Shown: one piece after another, positions 14,567-60,969 of the stretch | Layout of the letters: each line of letters starts with the position of its first letter | Numbering within the stretch: the stretch's first letter is position 1 | From: Archivesica marissinica | Lineage: Eukaryota; Mollusca; Bivalvia; Venerida; Vesicomyidae | Direction: 5' to 3' | DNA length: 64,000 nt | NCBI GenBank assembly: GCA_014843695.1 | Contig: CM026400.1 | Location: forward strand, 33,113,500 to 33,177,499 | Notes under the pieces: model-generated | Database searches by the model: none | What the model was told of the DNA's origin: nothing | What the model saw: only the letters and a program-made list of their open reading frames with translations | Position numbers and translations under genes: made by a program

Positions 14567-14593
14567 AAATATTGTTTGACCTCTTTATTGCAG

Positions 14594-14688: not shown

Positions 14689-17600
14689 GTATGTATTACT
14701 GTACACGAGACCGTATAATAAGATTATATATATTTCTCCCTCATGTTTCTCCCTCCTGTTTCACTCATATGTTTCTCCCACATGTTTCTCCCTCATGTTT
14801 CACCCTCATGTTTCACCATCATGTTTCTCCCTCATGTTCCACTTTCATGTTTCTCCCTAATGTTCTCCATCATGTTCCACTTTCATGTTTCTCCCTAATG
14901 TTCTCCATCATGTTTCACCCTCATGTTTCACCCTCATGTTTCACCATCATGTTTCACCATCATGTTTCTCCCTCATGTTCCACTTTCATGTTTCTCCCTC
15001 ATGTTTCACCCTCATGTTTCACCATCATGTTTCACCATCATGTTTCTCCCTCATGTTCCACTTTCATGTTTCTCCCTAATGTTCTCCATCATGTTTAGTT
15101 TATACAAATTTTGTTTTAGCTCGATTACTAAACAAGTTCTTACAACTTATATTAATCACTCTCGACACATCATTCCTGATGGAATCCATCGCCACGAGGG
15201 AGAGAGAAGATTGCATACGGGCATAATCATAACGGCTCCAGCGGGGCGCAAACTCCGGGCATTTCGCTCCAGAAGCGAACGCACTACCACTGCGCTATCA
15301 TGATTGCCTCATGTTTATCCCTCATGGTGATGGATTCCATCAGGAATATTGTCATGGCAAGAGTGATTAAGCTAAAAGTTGAACTAAAGTAAAGATGTAT
15401 CGGTTAAAATAACATGTAATCTACCTCTGTACCGGTATAAACTAATATAAAGTCATAGTACAAAAAATGCACTGATGGTCACGGGTTCGAGCCCCGCTCA
15501 GGCCGTGTCTCATTTATATGAAAAATTGGCAGTTTCTTACGGAGGTTGGTGCACCCAAGTACTGGTTAACCGCTGGAGCCTGTCCAGGAAAGATGTTGTT
15601 AGGTAAACTGCCCAAAATGGTGCTGATGCAGGCGTAAAACCCGAAATATAACATAACAAAAAATGATCTGGCTATTTAGGGTGTAGCATTTTAGTCGGCG
15701 GTAAAACCTGAGTGACATTTTGATTTCAGGTCTGGTTTGTGCAAGCTTTGGTCAGTCCCAGATTGTACAGAGATTCGAACACTTAGAGGTTTGTAAGCAT
15801 GCAGATAAACAACGATAACCTCCCATTGTATAATTCTATATTACTGTAAATATATATTATACCAGTCTAGATAAATCATCGTATAATTCTATATTACTGT
15901 AAATATATATTATACCAGTCTAGATAAATCATCATATAATTCTATATTACTGTAAATATATATTATACCAGTCTAGATAAATCATCGTATAATACCATAT
16001 GATATTTCAATCCAGATAATTCACACTGGTACCAACGAATACTAGGTAGTGATTGATGATAGGTACCGATGGATGCTGGTACCGATGGATGCTAGGTACC
16101 GATGGATGCTGGTACCGATGGATACTAGGTACCGATGAATGCTAGGTACCGATGAATGCTAGGTACCGATGGATACTAGGTACCGATGGATGCTGGTACC
16201 GATGGATGCTAGGTACCGATGGATACTAGGTACCGATGGATGCTAGGTACCGATGGATGCTAGGTACCGATGGATACTAGGTACCGATAGATGCTAGGTA
16301 CCGATGGATACTAGGTACCGATGGATGCTAGGTACCGATGGATACTAGGTACCGATGGATGCTAGGTACCGATGGATGCTAGGTACCGATGGATACTAGG
16401 TACCGATGGATGCTGGTACCGATGGATACTAGGTACCGATGGATGCTAGGTACCGATGGATACTGGTACCGATGGATGATAGGTACCGATGGATGCTAGG
16501 TACCGATGGATGCTTGGTACCGATGGATGCTAGGTACCGATGAATACTAGGTAGTGATTGATGCTAGGTACCGATGGATGCTAGATACGGATGGGTGCTG
16601 GTACCGACTGATGCTAGGTACCGATGAATGCTAGGTACCGATGGATGCTAGGTAGTGATTGATGCTAGGTACCGATGAATACTAGGTAGTGATGGATGCT
16701 AGGTAGCGATTGATGCTAGGTACCGATGGGTGCTGGTACAGGTGAATATTAGGTAGCGATTGATGCTAGGTACCGATGGATGCTAGGTACCGATGGGTGT
16801 GAGGTGCGATGGATGCTAGGTACCGACGGATGCTAGGTACTGATGGATGCTAGGTACCGACGGATGCTAGGTAGGTACCGATGGATGCTAGGTACCGATG
16901 GATGCTAGGTAGGTACCGATGGATGCTAGGTACCAATAAGTACCAGGTTATTTTTTATTTGTTTGGCCTGTCGATTTACTGACGTTCTGGCATGAAACAT
17001 GAAATTATTTGAAAGTAAGAAGTTATATTTTTACTCATTACAGGTCATAACTGTAATGTTGGTGCAATAGTGTTCCATCCACGTGCCACAATTGACCTGG
17101 AAGACACAGCGTGTTGTATGGCATCTTGTAGTCAAGATGGAGCCGTGAAACTCTGGAACCTTGTAGGGTAAGTTATCTCATGTCCATGCCACTGTATGTC
17201 TTGTATGGCATCTTGTAGGCAAGATGGAGCCGTCAAACTCTGGAACCTTGTAGGGTAAGTTATCTCATGTCCATGCCACTGTATGTCTTGTATGGCATCT
17301 TGTAGGCAAGATGGAGCCGTCAAACTCTGGAACCTTGTAGGGTAAGTTATCTCATGTCCATGCCACTGTATGTCTTGTATGGCATCTTGTAGTCAGGATG
17401 GAGCCGTGAAACGCTGGAACCTTGTAGGGTAAGTTATCTCATGTGCATGCCACTGTATGTCTGGAAGACTGACACAGCGTGTTGTATGGCATCTTGTAGG
17501 CACAAAGCTGGATACTCTACTGTAACTATTCTATCGCCGAGCCAGCACCAATATTTTTTTGCTACCGGGTGCACATTTGAGCGACGGACAGTTTTACCTA

Positions 17601-20600: not shown

Positions 20601-23600
20601 CCGGCGGCGATCGGACAAACGGTTCGAAAGTTGTCGCCTAATTAAAGTTTTCTTTTGTAATAGTTTCACATATAATTAGGGATATTGATGAGTAATTAGG
20701 GATATCGATGAGTAATTGTGGATACCGATGAGTAATTAGGGATATCAGTGAGTAATTAGGGATACCAATGAGTAGTTAGGGGATATCAATGAGTAATTAG
20801 GGATATCGATGAGTAATTAGGGATATCAATGAGTAATTGAGATATCAATGAGTAGTTAGGGATATCAATGAGTAATTAGGGATATCAATGAGTAATTGAG
20901 ATATCAATGAGTAGTTAGGTATATCAATGAGTAATAAGGGATACCAATGAGTAGTTAGGGGATATCAATGAGTAATTAGGGATATCGATGAGTAATTAGG
21001 GATATCGATGAGTGGTACTCGATCGAACGTCCGTGTATCGAATACTTGTTCAAGTACTCGAGTACTCGGCCATTTGTTTAAAAGTCAATAAAATTTGAAT
21101 AAATCTATATTTCACCTGTGAAGAAGTATAGACCATCGTTATCCTCGGGTCAATGAAATACCAACCACGCAAAACAATGCGATATAAAGGTGTTATGGTA
21201 CTTATGTAATACTTGCATACAATAACAGGATATACCAGTGTCCATTCTAGGACGCTCGATTGCGGGATTCACGCTAACTTTCTAAAGACCCCGCATGTTT
21301 ATAAATCAAGTGCGGGATAATCGCGCATAAATTAAACTGCGGAGAAATCTGATTCGCAGGTTCGATCCCCCCGTCTGACCCTAATAAAATTAACAGTCTT
21401 TCAGATGGGACGTTAAACCGAGGTCTTGTGTCGGTGCTTTACACCGTGCATGTAAAAGAACCAGAGGAGACTCTGGAATGGGTCTCTGTCTGTATCATTG
21501 CACTATCCTCCAAAAATCTAAATTGACTAATCTCTTCAGGAGGCGTCGCTGATATGGGTAACCGGTAGCGACGATAACTAAGCATAAAACACACACACAA
21601 ATATGGGTACCTCTAGTTATTCTCTAGTTTTCTGTTGTTTTTTCAGTTTTGATAATTCCTGGCGACTGTGGGATCTGGAGGCACAAGATGAGATTTTACA
21701 TCAGGAAGGTCATAGTAAACCAGTGTACGACGTCTGCTTCCAGTGTGATGGTGCTTTATCTGCTACAGGGTAGGTGGTTCTAGTTCTCAGATTGGTGGCA
21801 TTGTGGCTGGTTTGTACATCAGGAAGGTCATAGTAAACCAGTGTACGACGTCTGCTTCCAGTGTGATGGTGCTTTATCTGCTACAGGGTAGGTGGTTCTA
21901 GTTCTCAGATTGGTGGCATTGTGGCTGGTTTGAATCATTGTTGGATCTCAGGGCTCAATCTAGGTCAGAATTTCTGGGACACATTATGACTATTAACCCA
22001 TTCAACACCAAGTAACTCACATGGACTGGTCCATGATATTCATAAACCAATAAATGAATCAGAAAATCACATTTGGACAAGTTCATTTATCAAAATGGGT
22101 AATTATGTCTAAAAATAGTCATATCACTGGCAAAAACTGCAGATCCTGATGAGACGGCTCGTGACGAGCCGGCTCATCTGGATCTAAACTTTTTGTAAGC
22201 CTATTTAGAGGTCTGTGGTGTTGAAAGGGTTAAATACAAACATTTGAATACTAGTAGTAGGAGTGTTTTATAATGGACCAGTGCATCCTGGATACTGGAC
22301 AAAATTTTGTATGAAAACTTAATTTTTTTTTTTTAATTGATATTTTTTAGGCAAGGCATTTAAATTCCACGATCCACCTCCGTGGTCGAGTGGTTAAGGT
22401 CGCTGACTTGTATACCACTGTAACCTATCATCACTGATGGTCATGGGTTCGAGCCCCGCTCAGACCGTGTCTCATTTATATGAAAAAGTTGGCAGTTTCT
22501 TACGGAGGTTGGTGCACCCAAGTACTGGTTAACCGCTGGAGCCTGCCCAGGAAAGGTGTTGTTAGGTAAACTGCCTGCTGGCGATATAGCCCAAAATGGT
22601 GCTGATGCAGGCGTAAAACCCGAAATATAACATAACATAAATTCCACGTTGCCTCCTCTCTCTCTCACGTGGCGATGGATTCCATCAGGAATGAGGTCTT
22701 GAGAGTGATTAATATAAGTTGTAAGAACTTGTTTCACAATCGAGCTAAAATAAATTTGTATAAACTAAAGAAACATACTACTCACACTTTCTCATCTTTG
22801 TCTATGATTAAGACACATAGCATTTAACATAAACATATGTACTGTACAAAAAAGTCAATATGTGTAAATATATATGCGTACACATATATCTTCCGTTTGT
22901 GTTATACTTTGTAAGTTTGTAACTCACACGTACATGATATTATAATTAACAAATTAAACATTCTATGCAGCTATCTACCACGCTGTACACCACCAGATGT
23001 ATAACAACATTCTATACAGCTACCTAACATGCTGTACCAAGTACACCACCAGATGTATAACAACATTCTATGCAGCTACCTAACACACTGTACCAAGTAC
23101 ACCACCAGATGTATAACAACATTCTATGCAGCTACCTAACATGCTGTACACCACCAGATGTATAACAACATTCTATGCAGCTACCTAACATGCTGTACAC
23201 CACCAGATGTATAACAACATTCTATACAGCTACCTAACATGCTGTACCAAGTACACCACCAGATGTATAACAACATTCTATGCAGCTACCTAACACGCTG
23301 TACCAAGTACACCACCAGATGTGTAACAACATTCTATGCAGCTACCTAACACGCTGTACCAAGTACACCACCAGATGTATAACAACATTCTATGCAGCTA
23401 CCTAACACGCTGTACCAAGTACACCACCAGATGTATAACAACATTCTATGCAGCTACCTAACACGCTGTACCAAGTACACCACCAGATGTTTTTTACAGC
23501 TACCTAACATGCTGTACCAAGTACACCACCAGATGTGTAACAACATTCTATACAGCTACCTAACATGCTGTACACCACCAGATGTATAACAACATTCTAT

Positions 23601-26600
23601 ACAGCTACCTAACATGCTGTACCAAGTACACCACCAGATGTATAACAACATTCTATGCAGCTACCTAACACGCTGTACACCACCAGATGTATAACAACAT
23701 TCTATGCAGCTACCTAACACACTGTGCCAAGTACACCACCAGATGTATAACAACATTCTATACAGCTACCTAACATGCTGTACACCACCAGATGTATAAC
23801 AACATTCTATACAGCTACCTAACATGCTGTACACCACCATATGTATAACAACATTCTATACAGCTACCTAACATGCTGTACACCACCAGATGTATAACAA
23901 CATTCTATACAGCTACCTAACACACTGTGCCAAGTACACCACCAGATGTATAACAACATTTGATAGATTAATTTCAATTTAATCTGCTCTACATAAAATT
24001 GAGTTAAAATAGAGATGCTGAGATAATTGAAAACCACTGGAGCCAATTAAAAAAACTTGGAGCCAACTAAGAGCCATATAGTTCACAAATAAATATTTGA
24101 AGCAATGTATTTGACAAAACATGTGCCCAAATTTGTTTTCGCCAATTCACAAAATTGACCGCCAATATTTGTTTTTGTCGCAATTGGCGCCATTGGCGAC
24201 CGACAGCGGAAACCCTGACTCTCACATTGGAAACATTTTAATCAACATGTATATCTACTATCAGTCATATATTTATGACAGTTTATTTTATTTTCATTGC
24301 ATGCAAATTGTATATGTATTATTATAATGATGAGCTATGTAATGCTTAAGTTATGTTCTGTTCTGTTCTAATTTGTTAATGGAATTTTGTTCATTTGAAT
24401 ATTGCAGAGATTGTGATCTGACAGTGTGATTTGTCATTTCATATACATACTGTATTACTATATTCCGTGTATTGTGTATTACAGGGACCTAGATGGCTAT
24501 GGTAGAGTGTGGGATCTGTATTACTATATTCCGTGTATTGTGTATTACAGGGGTCTAGATGGGTATGGTAGAGTGTGGGATCTGTATTACTATATTCCGT
24601 GTATTGTGTATTACAGGGGTCTAGATGGGTATGGTAGAGTGTGGGATCTGTATTACTATATTCCATGTATTGTGTATTACAGGGGCCTAGATGGGTATGG
24701 TAGAGTGTGGGATCTGTATTACTATATTCCATGTATTGTGTATTACAGGGGTCTAGATGGGTATGATAGAGTGTGGTATCTGTATTACTATATTCCGTGT
24801 ATTGTGTATTACAGGGGCCTAGATGGGTATGGTAGAGTGTGGGATCTGTATTACTATATTCCGTGTATTGTGTATTACAGGGGCCTAAATTGGTATGGTA
24901 GAGTGTGGGATCTGTATTACTATATTCTGTGTATTGTGTATTACAGGGGCCTAGATGGGTATGGTAGAGTGTGGGATCTGTATTACTATATTCCGTGTAT
25001 TGTGTATTACAGGGGCCTAAATGGGTATGGTAGAGTGTGGGATCTGTATTACTATATTCTGTGTATTGTGTATTACAGGGACCTAGATGGGTATTGTAGA
25101 GTGTGGGATCTGTATTACTATATTCCGTGTATTGTGTATTACAGGGGCCTAGATGGGTATGGTAGAGTGTGGGATCTGTATTACTATATTCCATGTATTG
25201 TGTATTACAGGGGCCTAGATGGGTATGGTAGAGTGTGGGATCTGTATTACTATATTCCATGTATTGTGTATTACAGGGGCCTAGATGGGTATGGTAGAGT
25301 GTGGGATATGTATTACTATATGTGACCCACCATGGCAAAATCAGTCTTAAGTCGGAAAAAATAAATAATGAGTTAACTATACCATCATATAGGTATAAGT
25401 ATTAACTTTCTAGTGATATCAGTATCATTCATGTAGCTCGTTTCAGTCCAAAGTTATGACCATTTGAATAATGGACTTCACTCGAGTAATATTCCGAGAA
25501 AACAGCTGTCAAAGATTTGCTAAGATTTGCAGCTGTTCTAGTATAAATACAATAATAATAATAAAATTATTAATACAAAAATACTAACAAAATGTTTTTT
25601 AAAAATATTTTTTATTGCCCTATATTTTATTTACTTAAACCAATATATCCTGAAAGGATTATTCTGAATTTTCAGAGTACATGTAGCAATCTCCATGTCT
25701 TTGTAGATATTCTAGTTTTATAGCCCTGTATATTGACTCCTTTGATCTGGCAGTGCCTAGGGCATAAGTGGACACCTGCTGTTATATAATCCTGTTAGTT
25801 GGATCATAGTACACAGTAGCAGTGTTTCATTGATCAATTAAAATGTTTACTTTAGCACAATTCCCCTTATCAGTTGTGTTGTTTTTAAGGAAAGGATTAG
25901 GGGGTAATTTATGGCTTTTTGTGGGAAGTAAAGTAACCTTGTGTGCAGCTCTGAATTAGAAAAGGGGTGAAAAGCTGGTTCACCTTGAAAATTTAAACAT
26001 TCGTTTGTAATATTATGAAACATAAAAGCTGAATTCAGTCACAGTTATAAAAGAATGAATGAACTTTTGGATTCAGGTGAAGTATTATTTTAGAATTTAT
26101 ATTAAATACATGTACGTCCGAAATACTGGGCTACACGGAACACTGGTACAGATAAATTGTGTGCTAAAATTTAGCACAACAAATCAGCAGATAAAGGTTC
26201 TACACTTGTCTAGGTTTACCATTTACCTATATATGACTGATTTTCATCGAAATAAATCTAAATATTAAGCTATATAATGAATAATTGTCATGAAATCACA
26301 CTGAAAATCGTTTTGTTTATATCCAAGCGTATGTGAACATAGGAACAGGTGCGCACTTGCAGATCACGTGGTGTTTATCGGCCAATGGATGAGTGGGAAT
26401 CCCGTTTAGGTCGCAACCGAAGAGATTTTTGAAAAAATTGGAATGATTTAAAGCCGTCGATTAGTTGGAAGCATATACGATATTAGTTCAAAAATAGCAT
26501 CAGCTGAAAATACGTCATCTCTAGTTTATTTCGGTACCAAATACATGGGGCCAAACCGCGGGACAGTATCATTGAAGGCCATCGGAAAACACCACCTACT

Positions 26601-29600
26601 CGGCTTAGATCTTTTGTTTCACTGCGATTAATAACAATGGCAATTAACACCAAGCTAATTAAAATGTCTTTTTAATGCCTTAAATTACACAAATACGTGC
26701 TTCTATCACATTTATTATAAAGATAAATGATTATAAAATGCCATTATACAATAATCTGAAAATTGTTAAAATACCATTTTGTTGACTTATAATGTAATTA
26801 TCTGCCTTACGATAATCCCGACTTACGACTGATTTTGATATGGCGGGTCACATATTCCATGTATTGTGTATTACAGGGGCATAGATGGGTATGGTAGAGT
26901 GTGGGATCTGTATTACTATATTCCGTGTATTGTGTATTACAGGGGCCTAGATGGCTATGGTAGAGTGTGGGATCTGTATTACTATATTCCGTGTATTGTG
27001 TATTACAGGGGCCTAGATGGCTATGGTAGAGTGTGGGATCTGTATTACAGGGGCCTAGATGGGTATGGTAGAGTGTGGGATCTGTATTACAGGGGCCTAG
27101 ATGGGTATGGTAGAGTGTGGGATCTGTATTACTATATTCCGTGTATTGTAGGGGCCTAGATGGGTATGGTAGAGTGTGGGATCTGTATTACTATATTCCG
27201 TGTATTGTGTATTACAGGGGCCTAGATGGGTATGGTAGAGTGTGGGATCTGTATTACTATATTCCGTGTATTGTGTATTACAGGGGCCTAGATGGTTATG
27301 GTAGAGTGTGGGATCTGTATTACAGGGGCCTAGATGGGTATGGTAGAGTGTGGGATCTGTATTACAGGGGCCTAGATGGCTATGGTAGAGTGTGGGATCT
27401 GTATTACTATATTCCGTGTATTGTGTAGGGGCCTAGATGGGTATGGTAGAGTGTGGGATCTGTATTACTATATTCCGTGTATTGTGTATTACAGGGGCCT
27501 AGATGGCTATGGTAGAGTGTGGGATATGTATTACTATATTCCGTGTATTGTGTATTACAGGGGCCTAGATGGCTATGGTAGAGTGTGGGATCTGTATTAC
27601 AGGGGCCTAGATGGGTATGGTAGAGTGTGGGATCTGTAGTACAGGGACCTAGATGGCTATGGTAGAGTGTGGGATCTGTATTACTATATTCCGTGTATTG
27701 TGTATTACAGGGGCCTAGATGGGTATGGTAGAGTGTGGGATCTGTATTACTATATTCCATGTATTGTGTATTACAGGGGCCTAGATGGGTATGATAGAGT
27801 GTGGGATCTGTATTACTATATTCCGTGTATTGTGTATTACAGGGGCCTAGATGGGTATGGTAGAGTGTGGGATCTGTATTACTATATTCCGTGTATTGTG
27901 TATTACAGGGGCCTAGATGGGTATGGTAGAGTGTGGGATCTGTATTACAGGGGCCTAGATGGTTATGGTAGAGTGTGGGATCTGTATTACTATATTCCGT
28001 GTATTGTAGGGGCCTAGATGGGTATGGTAGAGTGTGGGATCTGTATTACTATATTCCGTGTATTGTGTATTACAGGGGCCTAGATGGTTATGGTAGAGTG
28101 TGGGATCTGTATTACTATATTCCGTGTATTGTAGGGGCCTAGATGGGTATGGTAGAGTGTGGGATCTGTATTACTATATTCCGTGTATTGTAGGGGCCTA
28201 GATGGTTATGGTAGAGTGTGGGATCTGTATTACTATATTCCGTGTATTGTAGGGGCCTAGATGGTTATGGTAGAGTATGGGATCTGTATTACTATATTCC
28301 GTGTATTGTAGGACCTAGATGGGTATGGTAGAGTGTGGGATCTGTATTACTATATTCCGTGTATTGTGTATTACAGGGGCCTAGATGGTTATGGTAGAGT
28401 GTGGGATCTGTATTACTATATTCCGTGTATTGTAGGGGCCTAGATGGGTATGGTAGAGTGTGGGATCTGTATTACTATATTCCGTGTATTGTAGGGGCCT
28501 AGATGGTTATGGTAGAGTGTGGGATCTGTATTACTATATTCCGTGTATTGTAGGGGCCTAGATGGTTATGGTAGAGTATGGGATCTGTATTACTATATTC
28601 CGTGTATTGTAGGACCTAGATGGGTATGGTAGAGTGTGGGATCTGTATTACTATATACGTTTTGCGGATTTCTTGGGCTTTAAGCTTGTACGGCGTGATG
28701 CGTACTACATAATTATATAGTCTATAATATTGTCGCAGGTGTTCGCGTTTCACGGTTCGGCTAGTCCGTAGATATATATTGCTGCTAACAATCGAATGCT
28801 TGAAAACATTGGTATCATTTCCGGTGGCCTTACATACAATTTTATAACATGTACGCTTTCTATGACGACCGCTCCTTATCAGGTCTTCATGAAACTTGAG
28901 ACCTGTATTATATTAAATACTCATACCAAGCTATATGGAGTTGTTTGCTTGTAGTTATTGTTTATGTGGATAATGTTTATAATTTTCAGGCCTATAGTGC
29001 CTACGTGAATCTACGCCTATGATATTTAAAAACAAATATTATGTAAACTGCATTTATTTACAATTAGCGCTTTATGCAAGCCTAATCTCATTTTCGTTTT
29101 CGGAATTAGACCTGCTGTTCAAGGCGCTGTTTATATATATGTATAGAATAGATAGTCATTTAAAATCAAGGAATTTCATCTGGACTATATGTAGTCTTCA
29201 ATCCAATTTCCAAGGCATTGGGAACCAGTATAATTACTAGAATCAATTCTTAGATTGTTGTTGATATTATTTATATTCCTGGCCAATCAATAATTAAATC
29301 AAAATATTTCAGTATTTCAATATATATCCTCTCAAATTGTGCGAACCATCTTTAAATATTGCGCACAGTTTTGTATATTTGTATATTAATGACTAGCAAT
29401 GAGTGTGTGTTTAGACTGTTTGATTTGTGTCCATCGTATATGCCTCTGGCAAGAGGCCTTTTTTCTTAGTATTATTCTAACAATAATATCCTGTATTTAC
29501 CATTTAAAATTTCGTGTTTTTTTTTTTGGTGTTTTTTTTATTTAAATTGTTTCTTTTGGATTTCAATTTGTTTATCTTTTCTTCTTTATGTGTCTCTTTA

Positions 29601-32600
29601 CTTGTATATATTTCATTTGTCGTCGCACCTCCCTGATTCCCTCGATTATGACCGGAAGATCCCTGCTGTTGCCCGCCATGTACACATCGGACGTAGTATT
29701 ATATCAACATAGGTAATGACTTAATGTCATGGCGAGCGTCGGTTGGGTCTTTCAACTGTCGCAGACAGGTGACTCGTAAAACATACAATTACATACTTTA
29801 CCCACTAGAGTCGTTACTACTTGGGCTTATTTTTCTAAAATATAAATTAGTAATATATCTAAAATGTCTTCAAAACTTAATAATTAAGCCATGTATGAAT
29901 ATAGATTTTGCAGTTGGTATTATTTTAATAGTTGGACATACTCACATAGTAAACAACGAATACAGGTATAGAAACTACTACATCTCAGCGGAATCTCTAA
30001 ATATGTACTATCTAATATATACAAGTAAATTACTAATGTTAGCAGGCGACATTGAGCCTAATCCAGGACCGCTAGGAACCGAACACTGTCTATCCATTAT
30101 GCATCAAAATATTAGAAGCATCAGAAACAAATTTTATTCTATAAAGAACTATTATTTAGATTTTGATATTTTATGCTTCACAGAAACACATCTTGCGGCA
30201 AATATACACGATGACAGTTTAAAGTTGGAAGGTTTTGATTACACTTTTAGAAAAGATAATACATGTCACTCTGGTGGTTTTTTAATATATGTAGCTGCTC
30301 ACTTACGACCTAAACGTGTTTTGGAGTTAGAAAATTTGCTTCCAGAGTCAATATGGGTTCGACCTAAATGTGTTTTGGAGTTAGAAAATTTGCTTCCAGA
30401 GTCAATATGGGTTCAAATTAATGATCGAAAACAAACCTTTTTACTATGCACACTTTATAGACCACCTCATTATACCACTGCATTTTGGGACAAAATAAAT
30501 ATTTGCATAGAAAAGGCAACAGAAAACATACAGAAACTGATTTTAGTCGGAGATATTAATGAAGACCAATTAAATGATTCTAATAACAAATTTAGAGATA
30601 TAGGTACTCCTAGTAAACAATATGACTAATATAATAAACGAACCAACACGCGTGACAGACAATACTAGAACATTACTTGATCCAATAGCCATTACAAATA
30701 CAATAGAAGTGCATGATTCGGGAATTTTCGTAACTCCGGACACAGTAAGCGATCATTTTGGAACATACGTACACATAAAAATAGACATAAAATAACACTC
30801 TCCCTCATCTAAACGTAGAGTATGGAACTACAAGCGTGCAGATTTTAACAAAATGAACAATTTAATAAGAACAACTAATTGGGAAATTATAATAACTAGT
30901 GGTACTATCGATGAGGCATGCAATTCTTTCGTTTCCCAAGTTTATTGAGATAGCTAAACTGTGTATTCCAACGAGTTTTGTAACTATAAGACCTAATGAC
31001 AAACCTTGGTATAATTCCGAAATACGTCGATCCTCACGTCAGCGTGACAGACAAAAGCATAAAGCTATAAATTCTGGAAAACATTCGGATTGGATTATTT
31101 ACAAACATATAAGAAATACAGTAAATAACATGAAAAAGCATGCGAAAGAAATATTTTTTAACAATATTGAATTTACTTTAAGTGACTAATAGCTCGTCCA
31201 ATCCCAGACAGTATTGGAAAATAATCAAAATGTTACTTAAGGGAACTTCAAAACAATGTGAAAGTATACCACCATTAAAAAACAACGATCAGTCATTCTC
31301 GCTTTCGGACACCGATAAGGCTAACACATTAAACGACTTCTTTGTCTCTATATCAAAGGTAGATGATTCGCAAACTCCTTTGCCAACGTTTATATCTAAA
31401 ACCAATTCACGTATGAATAATTTCATTATAACTGAACAGGACATTACTGGTGTTTTATCTAATTTAATGGTTAATAAGGCATCTGGACCCGACGAAATAA
31501 GTCACAGAATGATGAAGGAATCTTCAGATACATTATGTGTACCATTATCTATACTTTTTAATCGCTCATTAACTGAAAGTGTCTATCCTAAATATTGGAA
31601 ATCAGCTAATGTAATGCCACTATATAAAAAAGGCGACAAAGACGAACCGTCAAACTATAGACCGATCTCCTTAATCAGTTGTGTAGGTAAGGTTATGGAA
31701 CGAGTTATTTTCAAACAAACGTATAACTATTTACACGGAAATAATCTTATATATCCCAAACAATCTGGATTTCTTCCTGGTCACTCAACTATCTACCAAC
31801 TAATAGATATCTACAATCACATTTGCAAGGCACTCGATGATAAGAAATCAACATGTATAATATTTTGCGATATATCCAAGGCATTTGACAGAGTATGGCA
31901 TAAAGGATTATTATTTAAGATAGAGCAATATGGTATCACCGGAAATCTGTTGACGTGGTTTTCAAATTACTTATCGAATCGCAAGCAACAGGTTTTTGTT
32001 AGAACGTCATTTTCGGAAGAAAAATCATTATACGAAGGTGTCCCGCAGGGTTCAGTATTAGGTCCTCTACTATTTTTAATTTACGTTAATGATATTGCAG
32101 ATTCTTTGATAAGTATTACCAGACTATTCGCAGACGACAGTTCCCTTGCAACATCAACGTGTGACATATCGCTAATGGAGACAATACTTAATGAAGATAT
32201 GAACACTATTATGTCCTGGTCCAAGCAGTGGCTTGTTAAATTCAACCCAACAAAAACAGAAGCAATGTTCTTCTCCTTTATCAAAAGAAACCGCCCTAAT
32301 GTGTACTTTGATAACACTCGTCTAACATTTGTTGAACATCATAGACATCTTGGTATTACTTTTAGCGAAGATGGGTCGTGGTACAAACACATATCTAATA
32401 TAATTACATCATCGTCTAAAGTTCTAGGTTCAATGAAAATGCTAAAATTCAAGCTAAAACGTCAAACACTAAATCAAATGTATATATCGTATTTGAGGCC
32501 GTTGCTAGAATACGCTTCACTAATCTGGGACAATTGTGCACAATATGAGAAAGACACTCTAGAAAAAATACAATATGAATCAGCAAGAGTTGTAACAGGC

Positions 32601-35600
32601 CTTACCAGATCTGTATCAATACAAAACTTACTACGTGAAATAGGATGGGTATCTCTAGCAGACAGAAGAAAAATCCAAAAGCTAGTGTTAATTTATAAAG
32701 AAAAAACAGGAATTTTACCGGCTTATTTACATGATCTATTCCCATCGAGTGTTTCAGATGCTAATCCCTATAACTTAAGAAATAGTACCAATTTTGCAAC
32801 TTTAGCTAGGAGAACGGAGATTTATTCACAATCTGTCATTCCATCGTCGTTGCAACTTTGGAATCAACTTGGTCAAGCTATTAGAGCATCTATATCACTT
32901 CCTGTATTCAAACGAAAACTTAAAGCTATGTTTAGATCTCCAACTGTCCCATTATACTATTTAAAAGGTGAACGTTTTTCAGCCGTGCATCATGCCCATA
33001 TACGAAATAATTGTAGTAATCTAAATGCCGATTTACATGGTAACCATTTAATACCTAGCTCTGTATGTGATTGTGGACATGACATTGAAGACGCTGAGCA
33101 TTATTTTTTTAGATGTACTCGTTTCATTATCCAGCGGAGAAAACTATTTACCAATACGCGAGGTTTCCATCCCATGAGTACATACAAATTATTATTTGGC
33201 AATGAAAACCTAACCGATGATCAAAATGTATCTATTTTCAATCATGTCCAAATATTTATAAAAAAAAAGGAACGATTTAAACATTAATTATCATACATTA
33301 TGATACATATAATATATAGTTTGTATCACGAGTCACTATATACTTTACTCTGATAACAAGGGTCTCGGGGGTGGGGCGATGACATCTGAGCATACTTGTC
33401 CATTTTTTTCATGTTTTTTCCTTCTCTTAATTATATCCTCACTTCTTGTACGCTTTCATACAAATAAACCACTACTTATTTATCAGCTACAATGGGGAGG
33501 ACCGAATCTAATGTTGTTATAACTTGTGGTCCAACCCATTTGTGTATGTATGTAATACCTGTATGATTGTGATTGTATTTATGTATACATATACAATAAA
33601 ATATGATTAAACTAAACTATTACTATATTCCGTGTATTGTGTATTACAGGGGCCTAGATGGGTATGGTAGAGTGTGGGATCTGTATTACAGGGGCCTAGA
33701 TTGGTATGGTAGAGTGTGGGATCTGTATTACTATAGTCTGTGTATTACAGGGGCCTAGATGGGTATGGTAGAGTGTGGGATCTGTATTACTATTGTCCGT
33801 GTATTGTGTTACAGTATTACAGTGGCCTAGATGGGTATGGTAGAGTGTGGGATCTGTATTACTATAGTCCGTGTATTGTGTATTACAGGGGCCTAGATGG
33901 GTATGGTAGAGTGTGGGATCTGTATTACTATAGTCTGTGTATTACAGGGGCCTAGATGGGTATGGTAGAGTGTGTGGGATCTGTATTACTATATTCCATG
34001 TATTGTGTATTACAGGGGCCTAGATGGGTATGGTAGAGTGTGGGATCTGTATTACAGGGACCTAGATGGCTATGGTAGAGTGTGGGATCTGTATTACTAT
34101 AGTCCGTGTATTGTGTATTACAGGGGCCTAGATGGTATGGCAGAGTGTGGGATCTGTATTACAGGGGCCTAGATGGGTATTGTAGAGTGTGGGATCTGTA
34201 TTACTATATTCCGTGTATTGTGTATTACAGGGGCCTAGATGGGTATGGTAGAGTGTGGGATCTGTATTACTATATTCCGTGTATTGTGTATTACAGGGGC
34301 CTAGATGGGTATGGTAGAGTGTGGGATCTGTATTACAGGGACCTAGATGGCTATGGTAGAGTGTGGGATCTGTATTACTATTGTCCGTGTATTGTGTATT
34401 ACAGGGGCCTAGATGGCTATGGTAGAGTGTGGGATCTGTATTACTATTGTCCGTGTATTGTGTATTACAGGGGCCTAGATGGTTATGGTAGAGTGTGGGA
34501 TCTGTATTACTATATTCCGTGTATTGTGTATTACAGGGGCCTAGATGGCTATGGTAGAGTGTGGGATCTGTATTACAGGGGCCTAGATGGGTATGGTAGA
34601 GTGTGGGATCTGTATTACAGGGACCTAGATGGCTATGGTAGAGTGTGGGATCTGTATTACTATTGTCCGTGTATTGTGTATTACAGGGGCCTAGATGGCT
34701 ATGGTAGAGTGTGGGATCTGTATTACTATTGTCCGTGTATTGTGTATTACAGGGGCCTAGATGGTTATGGTAGAGTGTGGGATCTGTATTACTATATTCC
34801 GTGTATTGTGTATTACAGGGGCCTAGATGGCTATGGTAGAGTGTGGGATCTGTATTACAGGGGCCTAGATGGGTATGGTAGAGTGTGGGATCTGTATTAC
34901 TATATTCCGTGTATTGTGTATTACAGGGGCCTAGATGGGTATGGTAGAGTGTGGGATCTGTATTACTATATTCCGTGTATTGTGTATTACAGGGGCCTAG
35001 ATGGGTACACAGGCACCAGACACAAAATATTTTTTTTATTTTTGGCCTATGGTCATATAGTAAGTAATATATAATAAAGGCAACCAACGAAATTGAAACA
35101 TGCATGCAGAAACATCGACGAGAAACTAGGTAAAAACGACCCGATCACTGATTTGCCCTCGTGGTCCCGACCGGAAGACCTTTTTCTGTCAACAAATACT
35201 TTTTATTTCATCGAGATCGGTCAAATAACACCAGAACGGCGCATTGTTTCATCGTGAACAGCAGGACATGAAATGTTGTCGTTTTGGCTGGGTGTTCGGT
35301 TTTTGATTTGGCGGAATGTTTTCTCGACGTTTTACCCAGTGTAATACTCATAACATCTAAAAATCACTCCTACTTCGTTAAATGGAATCTTTCTCTCGCG
35401 AATCATGTTGTTTGCAGCCTCGGCGTGCAGATCCAACAGCAATACAGGAATCAAATACAAAACAAAAGTAAAATTCAATAATTGTTCCATTTCATTGGCT
35501 GCTGTTTATATATGTATTTACATGTTTCATTTTTGACCAATGAGAAAAAAGCATTCATTCACATCGTATGTTGTCAAAAACCAATCGCCCAGCCAAAACG

Positions 35601-38600
35601 ACAACTTTTCGTTTCCTGCTGTTCCCGATGAAACAATGCGCCGTTCAGGTGTTATTTGATCGATTTCGATGAAATAAAAAGTATTTGTTGACAGAAAAAG
35701 GTCTTCCGGTCGGGACCACGAGGGCAAATCAGTGATCGGGTCGTTTTTACCTAGTTTCTCGTCGATGTTTCTGCATGCATGTTTCAATTTCGTTGGTTGC
35801 CTTTATTATATATTACTTACTATATGACCATAGGCCAAAAATAATAAAAATATTTTGTGTCTGGTGCCTGTGGATGGGTATGGTAGAGTGTGGGATCTGT
35901 ATTACTATATTCCGTGTATTGTGTATTACAGGGACCTAGATGGGTATGGTAGAGTGTGGGATCTGTATTACAGGGGCCTAGATGGGTATGGTAGAGTGTG
36001 GGGCCTAGATGGGTATGGTAGAGTGTGGGATCTGTATTACTATATTCCGTGTATTGTGTATTACAGGGGCCTAGATGGGTATGGTAGAGTGTGGGATCTG
36101 TATTACTATATTCCTTGTATTGTGTATTACAGGGGCCTAGATGGGTATGGTAGAGTGTGGGATCTGTATTACAGGGACCTAGATGGGTATGGTAGAGTGT
36201 GGGATCTGTATTACTATATTCCGTGTATTGTGTATTACAGGGGCCTAGATGGGTATGGTAAAGTGTGGGATCTGTATTACTATAGTCTGTGTATTACAGG
36301 GGCCTAGATGGGTATGGTAGAGTGTGGGATCTGTATTACTATATTCCGTGTATTGTGTATTACAGGGGCCTAATGGGTGGTAGAGTGTGGGATCTGTATT
36401 ACAGGGGCCTAGATGGGTATGGTAGAGTGTGGGATCTGTATTACTATATTCCATGTATTGTGTATTACAGGGGCCTAGATGGGTATGGTAGAGTGTGGGA
36501 TCTGTATTACTATATTCCGTGTATTGTGTATTACAGGGGCCTAGATGGCTATGGTAGAGTGTGGGATCTGTATTACTATATTCCGTGTATTGTGTATTAC
36601 AGGGGCCTAGATGGGTATGGTAGAGTGTGGGATCTGTATTACAGGGACCTAGATGGCTATGGTAGAGTGTGGGATCTGTATTACTATATTCCGTGTATTG
36701 TGTATTACAGGGGCCTAGATGGCTATGGTAGAGTGTGGGATCTGTATTACAGGGGCCTAGATGGGTATGGTAGAGTGTGGGGTCTGTATTACTATATTCC
36801 GTGTATTGTGTATTACAGGGGCCTAGATGGGTATGGTAGAGTGTGGGATCTGTATTACTATATTCCGTGTATTGTGTATTACAGGGGCCTAGATGGGTAT
36901 GGTAGAGTGTGGGATCTGTATTACATATTCCGTATGTGTATTACAGGGGCCAGATGGGTATGGTAGAGTGTGGGATCTGTATTACTATATTCTGTGTATT
37001 GTGTATTACAGGGGCCTAGATGGGTATGGTAGAGTGTGGGATCTGTATTACTATATTCCGTGTATTGTGTATTACAGGGGCCTAGATGGGTATGGTAGAG
37101 TGTGGGATCTGTATTACAGGGGCCTAGATGGGTATGGTAGAGTGTGGGATCTGTATTACAGGGGCCTAGATGGGTATGGTAGAGTGTGGGATCTGTATTA
37201 CTATATTCCATGTATTGTGTATTACAGGGGCCTAGATGGGTATGGTAGAGTGTGGGATCTGAGGACCGGGAGGTGTGTAATGTTTCTGGAGGGACATCTG
37301 AAGGCTGTACTTGGTGTCGACTTTGCTCCAGATGGGTATGAAAACATTTTCTTTTTACGCTATCCAATGAATGATTGAATTTTTCTCAGTGAAAGAAAAC
37401 TGCATCTTCCTCTTGAAACAGTGGACGATGGCATTTTCTCTGCCACTGCTGGAGTTTCGTATTCTTCCGTGGTTGGATGTACTTTTGTATTTTAGCTCTT
37501 TTCTGACTACAGTCCCACCTCCCCAAACGTCACCTCACACCCTCCCATGAGCGACACCACACCCTCTTTATAACGTCACCTTTATTCCCACCTGTTGCGT
37601 TTTAATACAATTTCACCTCTCATGAACGACACCTCCCAACACCACACAACGACAGTCAATTTCCCACCCAGCGATGCAGAAAACCTCCCAAGAACAGACA
37701 AATATTTTGCCGAAAAAAGAAACCGCCTGTGTCATCAGACGCAAATAATTGATAATTGTTCCTTTCAATTTTCAATAAACAGTAACTATCTTAATCTTGG
37801 ACCATATATATCTGGGGGCCAATCATCGACAGACTGTTAAAATAATCATTGTTTACGGGGATTCTTTCAATAAACAGCTTGACATGATTGGGTAGTGCAG
37901 TGGTTAGCATGCACACTTCTCACCAATGCAACCCTGGTCGATCCTCGGACCAGGACGTGTGGTCGCAGATCATACCGATGAGTTTTCTCCAGCTATAGGG
38001 TTTATTCTAGAGTGGAAAAAATGGCAGGGTAAAGGGGCAGGGTGGGTCAGTAAAGGGCAGGGTGGGTCAGTAAAGGGGCAGGGTGGTCAGTAATGGGCAG
38101 GGTGGGTCAGTAAAGGGCAGGGTGGGTCAGAAAAGGGCAGGGTGGGTCAGAAAAGGGGCAGGTGGGTCAGTAAAGGGGCAGGGTGGGTCAGTAATGGGCA
38201 GGGTGGGTCAGTAAAGGGGCAGGGTGGGTCAGTAATGGGGCAGGGTGGGTCAGTAAAGGGGCAGGTGGGTCAGTAAAGGGGCAGGGTGGGTTAGTAATGG
38301 GGCAGGGTGGGTAAAAAGGGGCAGGGTGGTCAGTAAAGTGGGAAGGGTGGGTCAAAAGGGGGCAGGATGGGTCAGTAAAGGGCAGGGTGGGTCAGTAAAG
38401 TGGGAAGGGTGGGTCAGAAAAGGGGCAGGATGGGTCAGAAAAGGGGCAGGGTGGGTCAGAAAAGGGGCAGGGTGGGTCAGTAAAGGGGCAGGGTGGGTCA
38501 GGAAAGGGACAGGGTGGGTCAGTAAAGAAGCAGGGTGCATTATGAGGTGCAGGAGGGTATTTTGGGGTTAGCCCCTAGAAAACGTTGCTATATTACGGTG

Positions 38601-41600
38601 ATTGATCAAAGAGGCAGTAAGGCAGTACATATTGGTGAAAATGACGGACAATTCTAAATTGTATCGGTCTGCAGGGGAGGGGGGGGGGGGCTAACCCTAA
38701 CCCTGCCATTCTGCCCTAGAAAAAACCATAAGTTTTCACACACACACACACACACACACGAATGACCACATATACGTTTTCACCCGATTCAACAAGGGTG
38801 ATTTAATATTCTGTTGTAGCTTGTTTCGCAATCGTTGTAAAATAAATATAGTTTTAAACTTAGGGGAGTCACAAATAAACGTGATGAAGTACTATTCAAT
38901 GCATCATATATTATAATATCAACAATGACTGTAAGCATCGGGAGACTTTATGGCCACTGTTGTGAATAATTCTTACATTTTCTCTTCAGATACCATTTAG
39001 CTACCGGGAGTGAAGATAACACAGCAAAGATCTGGGACATCCGACAGAGGCAATGCATATATACAATACCAGCTCATAAAAATCTCATCAGCAAAGTCAA
39101 ATTTCAACGTATGTAAACGTTTTCATGATTATTTAGTCCGCCTCCGTGGTCGAGTGGTTAATGTCACTGACTTGTATACCACTGTAACCTATCATCACTG
39201 ATGGTCACGGGTTCGAGCCCCGCTCAGGCTGTGTCTCATTTATATGAAAAAGTTGGCAGTTTCTTACGGAGGTTGGTGCATCCAAGTACTGGTTAACCGC
39301 TGGAGCCTGCCCAGGAAAGGAGTTGTTAGGTAAACTGCCCGCTGGCGATATAGCCCAAAATGGTGCTGATGCAGGCGTAAAACCCGAAATATAACATAAT
39401 AACATGATTATTTAGTTTAAGCATATTTATTTTCTGTCAATACATGATTATTTACAACAACTGATATAAGGAATTGGACAGAAAGCTGTATAGCTTATGA
39501 TTGTCCTCTCCTTTCTAAATAATATACACAAACATTTCATGGCATAATAATTTACAATTTCATAAATCAATGATTTTTCTTTAGGGAAAATGTAATGTTT
39601 TAGAATGATAACATATATGTACTTACTTATAACATTACTAAACTTAAGTATTACATATTTACATAAATATTATGAATTAAGAGTACAGCACATGAAAGGT
39701 TTTGAAAATTAAATGAAAGAGAAACAACAATTAGAAGATGAGAAACAAAAAGTAAATGAACATAGAGAAGGAGAAAAGAGGTACGGTATACAGAATGAAT
39801 GAACAACACTCCGCCATGATTCTTGGCAGCGACAGGGCGAGAATTTCGATACGAAATTGCACTACATTGTCAGTGTTGGAAAGGAAAATCTACTCATTCG
39901 AAATAAAATGTATTATAAACCATTGTATACCTACTTGGGGTTCATTCTAGGTCAGAATTTTTGGGAGAAGTGAGAAAGCACGTGATCGCTTCCTTAAATG
40001 GTGTTCTTTAATATACTTCTGCAAAATAGGGTTAAATTGCACAGTACAACCATTAAATACAACATTTGAATAGAAGGAGTGCTTTATAATGGGCCAGTGT
40101 ATCTTACTAGACAAAATTTTATTTGAAAATCGTAAAAACCAAAAAATATATTTAGTTAAAAGTCACAATTTGACAATTTTGAATAGGAGTGCGTTATAAT
40201 GGGCCAGTGTAATCTTACTGGTCAATATTTTGTATGAGACATTATAAAAGCTGTACGGTTTCACCAAAAATCTACTTTTACAGACGGGTCTGTAGTCCAG
40301 TGGTAACATGCTGGACTGGTAATTCAGGGATCGCAGGTTCGATCCCCCGCCTGACCCTAATAAAATTACCAGTCTTTCAGCTGTACACCGTGCACGTAAA
40401 AGAACCAGAGGAGATTCTGGAATGGGTCTCTGTCTGTATCATTGCACTATCCTCCAAAAATCTAAAATGATTAATCTCGTCAGGAGGCGTCGCTCATGTG
40501 GGCAACCGGTAGCGACGATAAATAAACGTAAAACACACTCTCACACCCCCAAAAACATCGGCAAAGACCTATCTATATGTTAGAAATGTATGTATACCCT
40601 GGGCTTGCTGTTTCACACTACTGTATATAGATCGTTGTTCTGTACGTATATTTCAGCAAATCATGCACGATACCTAGTAACAGCATCATATGATTCCACC
40701 GTGAAGGTATGTGTACCCTCTTCCGTACTGTAGGGTTAGGATAGGGGGGTGGGGAATTTATAAATATATGTGTACCCTCTTCCGTACTGTAGGGTTAGGA
40801 TAGGGGGGTGGGGTATTTATAAATATGTGTATCTTGTACTGTAGGGTTAGGTAGGGGGTGGGGGTATTTATAATTATGTACTCTTCCGTACTGTAGGGTT
40901 AGGATAGGGGGGTGGGGTATTTATAAATATTGGATTAATATGTGTACCCTCTTCCGTACTGTAGGGTTAGGATAGGGGTGGGGTATTTATAAATATATGT
41001 GTACCATCTTCCGTACTGTAGGGTTAGGATAGGGGGGGTAGGGGTATTATAAATATATGTGTACCATCTCCTACTGTAGGGTTAGGATAGGGGGGTGTGG
41101 TATTTATAAATATATGTGTACCCTCTATCGTACTGTAGGGCTAGGATAGGGGGTGGGGGTATTTATATATATGTCCTTCCGTACTGTAGGTTAGGATAGG
41201 GGGGTGGGGTATTTATAATATATGTGTACCCTCTTCCTTACTGTAGGGTTATTATATGGGGGTGGGTTATTTATAAATATGTGTTAGCCATCTTCCGTAC
41301 TGTAGGGTTAGGATAGGGGGGTGGGGAATTTATAATATCTGTGTACCCTCTTACTGTATGGTTAGGAAAGGGGGGTGGTGAATTTAATAATATATGTGTA
41401 CCCTCTTCCGTACTGTAGGGTTAGGATAGGGGGGTGGGGATTTATAAAATATGTGTACCTCTTCCGTACTGTAGGGTTAGGATAGGGGTGGGGTATTTAT
41501 AAATATATGTGTACCCTCTTCCGTACTGTAGGGTTAGGATAGGGGTGGGGTATTTATAAATATATGTGTACCATCTTCCGTACTGTAGGGTTAGGATAGG

Positions 41601-44600
41601 GGGTGAGGAATTTATATAAAAAAATTGGAAGGTATGTGTACCATCTTCCGTACTGTAGGGTTAGGATAGAGGGGTGGGGTATTTATAAAAAAAATGGAAT
41701 TCTCAAATATACGTCGTTCTTATAATGTTTTAACGTTGCTCTTGTGATTTTTATCTCCCGTCGTAATTTTAGCGAAGAGTATTGATTAGACGTTATATGT
41801 GCGTCACGCGTGTTCTCAGTAACCAATGGGTTAAATATGTATATCACTGTAGTGTGATTGCGCACTTTCCGTGCAGTTTGACCCAGTAACATCAGAGTTA
41901 TTGCCCTTTAATTGACTAAAAATCCACAAATGTAACTTTTGTCCGGCAAGTATCTTAAAAGGTACTGAAGATATGTCAATGAAACTTGTGTGGTAGACGC
42001 AAGTTTCAAAGACTTTGGTCGTTTATAATTTTGTTTATTACACGTCGTATACACACATGTTTCATCGCTGTCTGATTAGCGCAGTAGTTAGCGCGCTCGC
42101 TTCTCATCAATGCGACCCTGGTTCGATCCTCGGACCGGGAAGTATGTGAGATGGTACGATGGTCGCCAGATCGGACAGGTGGGTTTTCTCCGGGTACTCC
42201 GGTTTCCTCCCACATGAATGACCACATTTACGCTTTCATCCGAGCCAACGAGAGTGATTAATATAAGTTGTTAAAACTTGCTTCGCAATCGTTGTCAAAT
42301 AAATAAGGTTAAAAAAAAAATGTTTCATCGTATATCTAGAGTCATTCTTACATAATCTCTTTAATTCCCCATCGATGTTCTTGTGGTTTCCATAACGTTT
42401 TGTATGCATTTAATAATGGATGTCTTCCGAAACACAAAATGGTATCAAAATTTTAAAACATGGTATGTCCACACTATGAACTTGGTGTTGTGCGCATTTA
42501 ATAATGGATGTATTCCGAAACACCATGTTTTAAAATTTTGATACCATTTTGTATGTCCACACTATGAACTTGGTGTTGTGCGCATTTAATAATGGATGTC
42601 TTTCGAAACACCATGTTTTAAAAATTGGATACCATTTTGTATGTCCACACTATGAACTTGGTGTTGTGCGCATTTAATAATGGATGTATTCCGAAACACC
42701 ATGTTTTAAAATTTTGATACCATTTTGTATGTCCACACTATGAACTTGGTGTTGTGCGCATTTAATAATGGATGTATTCCGAAACACCATGTTTTAAAAT
42801 TTGGATACCATTTTGTATGTCCACACTATGAACTTGGTGTTGTGCGCATTTAATAATGGATGTCTTTCGAAACACCATGTTTTAAAAATTTGATACCATT
42901 TTGTATGTCCACACTATGAACTTGGTGTTGTGCGCATTTAATTATGGATGTATTCCGAAACACCATGTTTTAAAATTTGGATACCATTTTGTATGTCCAC
43001 ACTATGAACTTGGTGTTGTGCGCCTTTAATAATGGATGTATTCCGAAACACCATGTTTTAAAATTTGATACCATTTTGTATGGGTTGCATCATTTTATAT
43101 TTGTAATGTCCTGATGTTTTTTAATGCGTTTTGAATGTCATATTATACTCTTCAGAAATGGAGGAAATAAAGATGTTGTGGTATACATGTCACATGATCT
43201 CAAGGCTTCATTCTATTGGCTTACTACAACTAGCTCTCTCAATGCTAAAAATAGATTAGTCCTTCTCCGTGGTCGAGTGGCTAAGCCTTAAGGTCGCTGA
43301 CTTGTATACCACTGTAACCTATCATCACTGATGGTCACGGGTTCGAGCCCCGCTCAGACTGTGTCTCTTTATATGAATAATTTGGTAGTTTCTTACAGAG
43401 GTTGGTGCACCAAGTACAGGTTAACCGCTGGAGCCTGCCCATGAAAGGTGTTGTTCGGTAAACTGCCCATCAGCTCAAATGGGCAACTGGTAGCGACGTT
43501 AAATATACCTAAATATATATATTTATATATGGATTAAACAACTCAAGCAGATGATCACAGGTGCAGTGATTACAACCCTGTGTCAGTGGTCACCTCTATT
43601 AAGCAGCCAACCTGTATTAAGCAGCGAGTTTGAAGATTCCAAATATGTTGTTTTATTTTACATATGCCCTCTATTAAGCAGCCAATCTGTATTAAGCAGC
43701 CGGTTTCACAATTCCAAATATGTTGTTTTATTTTACATATGCCCTCTATTAAGCAGCCAACTGTGCTTAGCATCCACTTTCTGTGATTCCCTTGCCTGGC
43801 TGCTTAAGACAGGTTTGACTGTATATAAAATTACACTAAAAATTACCCTGTTACACTTGTAATATAGAGGGATGACAATGTACAGTTTCACAAGAACCAT
43901 AATTCTACCTCCAGTGATAACTGAATTATCTCCCCTTTACTATATTTTGCAACGTATTTTTGTCCAGAGAATATCTGAAAAAGTAAGTACGGGATTTACC
44001 GACTACAATGTAACTTGGCATATGAATAAAATGTGTTGTGCAAAAACCATACACCAAGTTTAAGTAATTACTGGATTATGGCCCTTTAAAATTTTACGCA
44101 TATGTTATGAGTTTATTAGTAGTGATAGCGCAGTGTTAATGCGTTCGCTTCAGATGCGAAAGGCCCAGAGTTTGCACCCCGCTGTAGCAGTTATGATTGT
44201 GCCATTGGGCAAGGCATTTAAATTCCACATTGCCTCTTCTCTCCGCCATAATAAATGGTAAAAAGATGGAATTATCTGATAAGCAAATGAGAAAAATGAA
44301 TGAATAAAAAATCAAATGAATAATAAATATATATATATATGTTTCTGTCTAAAAAAATAGACCATACGATATTGTGTGGTTATAACAGGGTTCATTCTAG
44401 GTCAGATTGTTTGGACGAAGTGAGAACGCGCGCGGTCACGTCCGTAAATTGTGTTATTTAATCAATTTCAACCAAATATGGTTAAAATGCACAACATTAC
44501 CATTAAATACAACATTTGAATAGAAGGAGTGCTTTATAATGGGGTCAGTGTATTTTACTGGACAATATTTTGTATGAAAATTGCAAACAAAAACAAAATT

Positions 44601-59969: not shown

Positions 59970-60969
59970 NNNNNNNNNNNNNNNNNNNNNNNNNNNNNNN
60001 NNNNNNNNNNNNNNNNNNNNNNNNNNNNNNNNNNNNNNNNNNNNNNNNNNNNNNNNNNNNNNNNNNNNNNNNNNNNNNNNNNNNNNNNNNNNNNNNNNNN
60101 NNNNNNNNNNNNNNNNNNNNNNNNNNNNNNNNNNNNNNNNNNNNNNNNNNNNNNNNNNNNNNNNNNNNNNNNNNNNNNNNNNNNNNNNNNNNNNNNNNNN
60201 NNNNNNNNNNNNNNNNNNNNNNNNNNNNNNNNNNNNNNNNNNNNNNNNNNNNNNNNNNNNNNNNNNNNNNNNNNNNNNNNNNNNNNNNNNNNNNNNNNNN
60301 NNNNNNNNNNNNNNNNNNNNNNNNNNNNNNNNNNNNNNNNNNNNNNNNNNNNNNNNNNNNNNNNNNNNNNNNNNNNNNNNNNNNNNNNNNNNNNNNNNNN
60401 NNNNNNNNNNNNNNNNNNNNNNNNNNNNNNNNNNNNNNNNNNNNNNNNNNNNNNNNNNNNNNNNNNNNNNNNNNNNNNNNNNNNNNNNNNNNNNNNNNNN
60501 NNNNNNNNNNNNNNNNNNNNNNNNNNNNNNNNNNNNNNNNNNNNNNNNNNNNNNNNNNNNNNNNNNNNNNNNNNNNNNNNNNNNNNNNNNNNNNNNNNNN
60601 NNNNNNNNNNNNNNNNNNNNNNNNNNNNNNNNNNNNNNNNNNNNNNNNNNNNNNNNNNNNNNNNNNNNNNNNNNNNNNNNNNNNNNNNNNNNNNNNNNNN
60701 NNNNNNNNNNNNNNNNNNNNNNNNNNNNNNNNNNNNNNNNNNNNNNNNNNNNNNNNNNNNNNNNNNNNNNNNNNNNNNNNNNNNNNNNNNNNNNNNNNNN
60801 NNNNNNNNNNNNNNNNNNNNNNNNNNNNNNNNNNNNNNNNNNNNNNNNNNNNNNNNNNNNNNNNNNNNNNNNNNNNNNNNNNNNNNNNNNNNNNNNNNNN
60901 NNNNNNNNNNNNNNNNNNNNNNNNNNNNNNNNNNNNNNNNNNNNNNNNNNNNNNNNNNNNNNNNNNNNN
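59970..60969. other. Assembly gap, 1000 N
   Basis: Exactly 1000 unknown bases, a conventional placeholder, so the true size is unknown. Both edges are tandem repeats. Frames drawn across it are meaningless. Confidence 1.

Follow-up and report, generated by a model that had tools for sequence, protein, structure and literature searches.

Tandem copies of an intron/exon border, acceptor included, precede the true exon in the PRPF4 gene of the bivalve Archivesica marissinica

In NAGNAG tandem acceptors, competing AGs lie a few nucleotides apart and share one branch point, and in tandem exon duplication a whole exon is copied together with both of its splice sites. A minisatellite reportedly gives multiple splice donors in an interferon-induced transcript, as the title of Turri et al. 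of 1995 has it. In human ABCA7, a variable number tandem repeat (VNTR) of about 12–427 units of 25 bp lies in intron 18 on the donor side; in the excerpted report (PMC5954066), an isoform retaining exactly one unit amounted to 2 ± 1% (by our own reading of the word "respectively") independently of array length, whereas longer arrays reduced expression and caused the following exon to be skipped more often. Here, an acceptor-side array is described from a 64,000-nt stretch of the vesicomyid bivalve Archivesica marissinica (assembly GCA_014843695.1, contig CM026400.1, positions 33,113,500 to 33,177,499, forward strand), which as a whole is called the window and to whose first letter all coordinates below refer. 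The array lies in an intron of PRPF4, the gene of the U4/U6 small nuclear ribonucleoprotein (snRNP) protein Prp4, and consists of copies of the last part of that intron and the first part of the following exon. It is probably a functionless minisatellite, seeded by duplication of a 66-bp exon edge and tolerated through exon definition. Judged from genomic DNA, from which all statements on splicing are drawn, it is an acceptor-side counterpart of a known kind of array. No acceptor-side array of this kind was found in the open-access literature, which was covered mostly by titles and abstract openings.

The host gene was identified by matches to the PRPF4 protein of Mactra antiquata, residues 2–516 of which are covered between −12655 and 44891, on the same gapless 84.8-kb piece that holds the array, and on which the gene is complete; an earlier note on this DNA, which had named a splicing-factor gene as the host, is borne out. 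In the window, nine PRPF4 exons, which start at about Mactra residue 207, join into a single open frame with a final TGA, and the exon pair assigned by that note to either side of the array, 21647..21769 (+ strand; sequence mapping, open frame) and 37228..37335 (+ strand), is correct. Among the matches listed (best 120 of 1531), the closest proteins were one of 517 residues (91%) and that of Mactra antiquata (89%), followed by those of Mya arenaria (88%) and Dreissena polymorpha (85%), which points to a heterodont bivalve. Exon 37228–37335 aligns at 37 of 37 residues with human Prp4 382–418 in a PDB comparison, in which other WD40 proteins outscored human Prp4 by summing repeats. This exon has 108 nt, an acceptor that is the last in the array and the donor TGG/GTATGA. 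Its acceptor is not strong, with 60% pyrimidine at −23..−4, joint lowest among the nine window acceptors. The intron that precedes it measures 15.5 kb, in a genome of 1.54 Gb.

Unit traces were found at 92 places between 24453 and 37261, and in 90 of them an AG stands at the exon start, namely the real acceptor 37228 and 89 decoys. The claim that every unit keeps an acceptor fails at two traces, 35863, which is cut by a mobile element, and 36001; the extent of the array, from 24453 into the real exon, was confirmed, as was the composition of the commonest unit (66 bp, the last 32 bp of the intron and the first 34 nt of the exon). Successive traces (n = 91) are spaced by 66 bp in 45 cases, by 42 bp in 19 and by 59 bp in 13. 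The upstream segment TATTACTATATTCC, which by our own reading would hold the branch point and pyrimidines, is present in 68 of the 92 traces and in 67 decoys. It is missing from 21 decoys of the 42-bp kind, whose AG directly follows the purine-rich exon tail, and is interrupted by a mobile element in unit 26877. The picture of about 90 near-identical competitors therefore does not hold, given three length classes (66, 59 and 42 bp) and 21 decoys without a branch/pyrimidine-like segment. Local indistinguishability is real for four decoys (24683, 25211, 34016 and 36471), which match the real site over −34..+34 without a single difference; discriminating information must accordingly lie outside that stretch, in the exon body, the donor or the position.

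The units had also been described as lacking a donor. This was not upheld for most units: in 55 of the 90, that of the real exon among them, the acceptor is followed by TGGGTATGG, a near match to the real donor, and in the other 35 this string is changed; AGATGGGTATGG likewise has 55 copies. The string is one base off the real donor AGATGG/GTATGA and equals the real donor AGATGG/GTATGG of a second gene copy described below. It stands 12 nt downstream of the acceptor, and 12 nt is very short for an exon; near the start of the real exon it is presumably unused as a donor. None of the 90 units reads AG/GT, the form of a recursive splice site in which a donor GT directly follows the AG.

Three mobile-element insertions divide the array into four blocks. 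Block 1 (24453..25320, + strand) has 13 units at 66-bp spacing and is followed by an element with terminal inverted repeats and a TA target-site duplication, lying within an array unit (25321..26852; ends TGTGACCC...GGGTCACA, recognised by eye). In block 2 (26853..28656, + strand), 66-, 42- and 59-bp units are mixed. A retrotransposon of the type without long terminal repeats (28657..33617, + strand; RVT_1, E 2.9e-34), with the 11-bp target-site duplication TATTACTATAT, separates it from block 3 (33618..35007, + strand), and a foldback element with inverted ends and the 8-bp target-site duplication GATGGGTA (35008..35872, by eye) separates block 3 from block 4 (35873..37261, + strand), the final part of which is the first 34 nt of the real exon. 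The first open reading frame of the retrotransposon contains, upstream of an endonuclease-like part, the string DIEPNPGP, which we take to resemble 2A; the endonuclease-like match is under Pfam's cut-off.

With ABCA7, as far as the excerpted report goes, the locus shares an array that abuts an exon and a unit that includes the exon's own splice site, here the PRPF4 acceptor; edges of this type are also seen at two PRPF4 donors (17114–17462 and 21697–21932). The ABCA7 unit is a frame-shifting one of 25 bp on the donor side and begins with the donor's GT, whereas the PRPF4 array stands on the acceptor side, carries 34 nt of exon per unit, is open and in frame in its 66- and 42-nt units and, unlike ABCA7, is interrupted by mobile elements. 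The system of Turri et al., going by its title, likewise offers many splice sites, but these are donors. The likeness to NAGNAG acceptors is confined to competing AGs for one exon, since no two successive traces are closer than 35 nt, 77 of the 91 distances equal 42, 59 or 66 nt, and most units come with their own upstream segment. As in tandem exon duplication, exon sequence is present in tandem copies, but the unit comprises 34 of the 108 exon nucleotides, and the region of the real donor occurs only once when compared over 40 nt.

Translated in the PRPF4 frame, the 66- and 42-nt units contain no stop and give repeats of 22 and 14 residues. The four decoys nearest to the real site, 37012, 37078, 37120 and 37162 (37012..37227, + strand), are in frame and open to the real exon, and their use would give exons of 324, 258, 216 and 174 nt, respectively, and add 22–72 residues to PRPF4. 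Two of them, 37120 and 37162, the nearest, are of the 42-bp type without a branch/pyrimidine-like segment, and 37078 and 37012 carry the full upstream segment. From each of the remaining 85 decoys, a stop is met when reading straight to the end of the real exon.

As founding event, a tandem duplication of a 66-bp stretch across the PRPF4 intron/exon border is proposed, with CTG (3 bp) shared at its ends; this fits the sequences ..ACATACTG/TATTAC at the array's left edge and ..GGGATCTG/TATTAC at the end of the unit. Growth to about 90 units would have followed through slippage or unequal exchange, and the three mobile elements would have inserted. The exon would be recognised as a unit, so that the acceptor pairing with the donor 108 nt downstream, beside the unique exon body, wins, and decoys without an adjacent exon body would lose to this exon-proximal acceptor; the absence of their own branch/pyrimidine-like segment would put the 42-bp decoys at a further disadvantage. 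A shift of splicing to any of the four nearest decoys would keep the frame, and the first duplications may thus have been mild. The intron of 15.5 kb is a setting in which human data favour sites closest across the exon, according to the excerpted text of PMC9225289. To call the choice of the last AG an open mechanistic question, as the earlier note had done, was an overstatement, as these human long-intron data and those on ABCA7 (PMC5954066), in the portions cited, bear on it. By analogy, the last acceptor is expected to dominate, with a few percent of use at 37078 and 37012 and perhaps some exon skipping. Structure of the RNA was considered as a selector and rejected: predicted accessibility ranks the real site 8th of 90 at −8..+2 and 58th of 90 at −18..−9.

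A second set of PRPF4 3' exons is located on the same scaffold, 59 kb on and past two 1000-N gaps. Its array has five 66-bp units, that is four decoys (against 89 here) and the real one, all in frame and open. On this piece, no PRPF4 match was obtained before Mactra residue 327 and none to exon 40657–40706. Between the copies, substitution differences amount to 1.0–1.6% in three stretches (two beside the array, the third containing the exon body) and to 3.4% past the gene. The second copy may be an uncollapsed haplotype with assembly faults, which the divergence of 1.0–1.6% fits, or a recent duplicate of the 3' part. The two arrays agree in their left edge, and the variants GGACC and CCATG are common to the first and last units of both, but also occur in other units; this suggests an array older than the split of the two copies. 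Unit variation and substitution differences fit growth here or contraction in the second copy.

Multiplied edges are not confined to this acceptor. The exon edges tested in the window number 17, and three of them, one acceptor and two donors, occur in multiple copies. The 37228 acceptor recurs at 70 places with ≤7 substitutions over 40 nt. Exon 17044..17167 (+ strand) has its donor, at 17167, in four copies within an 87-bp ×4 array (17114..17462, + strand), and over 40 nt two of the three decoys are identical to the true donor and the third has 2 mismatches. The donor at 21769, that of the exon upstream of the acceptor array, has two identical copies in a 118-bp ×2 duplication (21697..21932, + strand), with 20 nt on either side identical in both. 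For all three edges, the conserved protein requires the exon-proximal copy; reading beyond donors 17167 and 21769 gives an immediate stop (after WNLVG and SATG). Exon 40657..40706 (+ strand) is followed directly from its donor by a 57-bp array (×17; 40708..41689, + strand) that begins at intron position +2 and whose units have no exon part; many of these units read ATATGT instead of GTATGT. A 36-bp-unit array of 14.5 kb occupies 1–14573 and stops about 20 bp short of the PRPF4 acceptor 14594. Tandem repeats make up 48% of the window and 10, 14, 11, 75, 80 and 46% of six 6-kb samples from elsewhere in the genome, which were few and hand-placed at round coordinates. In at least some of its regions, then, this genome commonly carries tandem repeats, which makes an array at an exon edge less striking than in a genome poor in repeats.

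Several points weigh against a functionless array tolerated through exon definition. Half of the genome samples (three of six) contained only 10–14% tandem repeat, so that the gene is richer than half of them. For acceptors in long introns, the excerpted text of PMC9225289 gives a significantly reduced upstream preference and does not report a reversed one. Exons of 258 and 324 nt, as would result from 37078 and 37012, are of sizes that exon definition does not clearly exclude, and use of the last acceptor, 37228, is something we infer from sequence only. Substitutions among the units are rarer at −17..−1 than in the rest of the unit (3 of 32 distinct changes, P = 0.04, region chosen post hoc), which is not predicted under pure neutrality. 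Selection keeping the decoys was considered on this ground and rejected, the depletion being weak and post hoc. Apart from these points, the 67 decoys with the upstream segment may carry a cost: two acceptors on one RNA can be bound at the same time by U2AF or U2, with an inhibitory effect on splicing in vitro (PMC5389562, in excerpt).

Use of the nearest decoys at a real level, giving in-frame PRPF4 isoforms with 22–72 extra residues in one WD40 blade, is unlikely, yet it is the alternative that was given most weight. In its favour, 66 and 42 are both divisible by three and units of either length have no stop in the PRPF4 frame, the four decoys closest to the exon are open here, as are all four of the second copy, and 37078 and 37012 have a complete upstream segment; the two decoys closest to the exon, however, are of the kind without one. 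At the junction 21647–21769/37228–37335, none of the six relatives compared has an insertion, these being other species that may be without the array, and an insertion would presumably hit a propeller turn conserved in all six. The peptide encoded by the array (window 34232–34651) had no match at E ≤ 0.001 among 2433 candidates. That the array or its length was made by assembly is distinctly less probable still. Four gaps of 1000 N interrupt the 184 kb read (59970–60969 in the window and three more), neighbouring pieces (C and D) have stretches that are 100% identical, which points to redundant pieces in the scaffold, and a second 3' gene copy with only four decoys lies 59 kb away. Against this, gene and array share one gapless piece, the array blocks of 0.9–1.8 kb are separated by distinct mobile elements whose target-site duplications are cut from array units, and the second copy has the same kind of array in the same place.

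A regulatory role would have the decoys trap the spliceosome at times of impaired tri-snRNP supply or fidelity, yielding early-stop mRNAs for decay and thereby autoregulation of PRPF4. The host gene does encode a U4/U6 protein, from 85 of the 89 decoys a straight reading towards the exon runs into a stop, and the inhibition by concurrent U2AF or U2 occupancy in the excerpted in vitro work (PMC5389562) would suit such decoys; with tandem repeats common in the samples, other arrays in the same gene that have no such logic and a weak sign of constraint on the acceptor, we give this very little credence. The same slight chance is allowed to a further form, in which the array would act as a gauge of spliceosome fidelity: a faltering tri-snRNP supply would shift the choice upstream, the nearest decoys would give a longer in-frame PRPF4 and all others mRNAs for decay, and PRPF4 output would both report and correct accuracy.

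The array amounts to a natural experiment: many of its copies agree fully or almost fully in the acceptor, the branch region and the initial 34 nt of exon. With local sequence matched in this way, exon body, donor, order and distance could be ranked from the use of the individual acceptors. With its two donor-side duplications, the gene would also allow a test, in a mollusc, of the exon-proximity rule at acceptor and donor edges alike. Clean use of the last site would mean that exon definition overrides dozens of matched competitors; otherwise, the locus would show how an exon-edge minisatellite makes protein variants.

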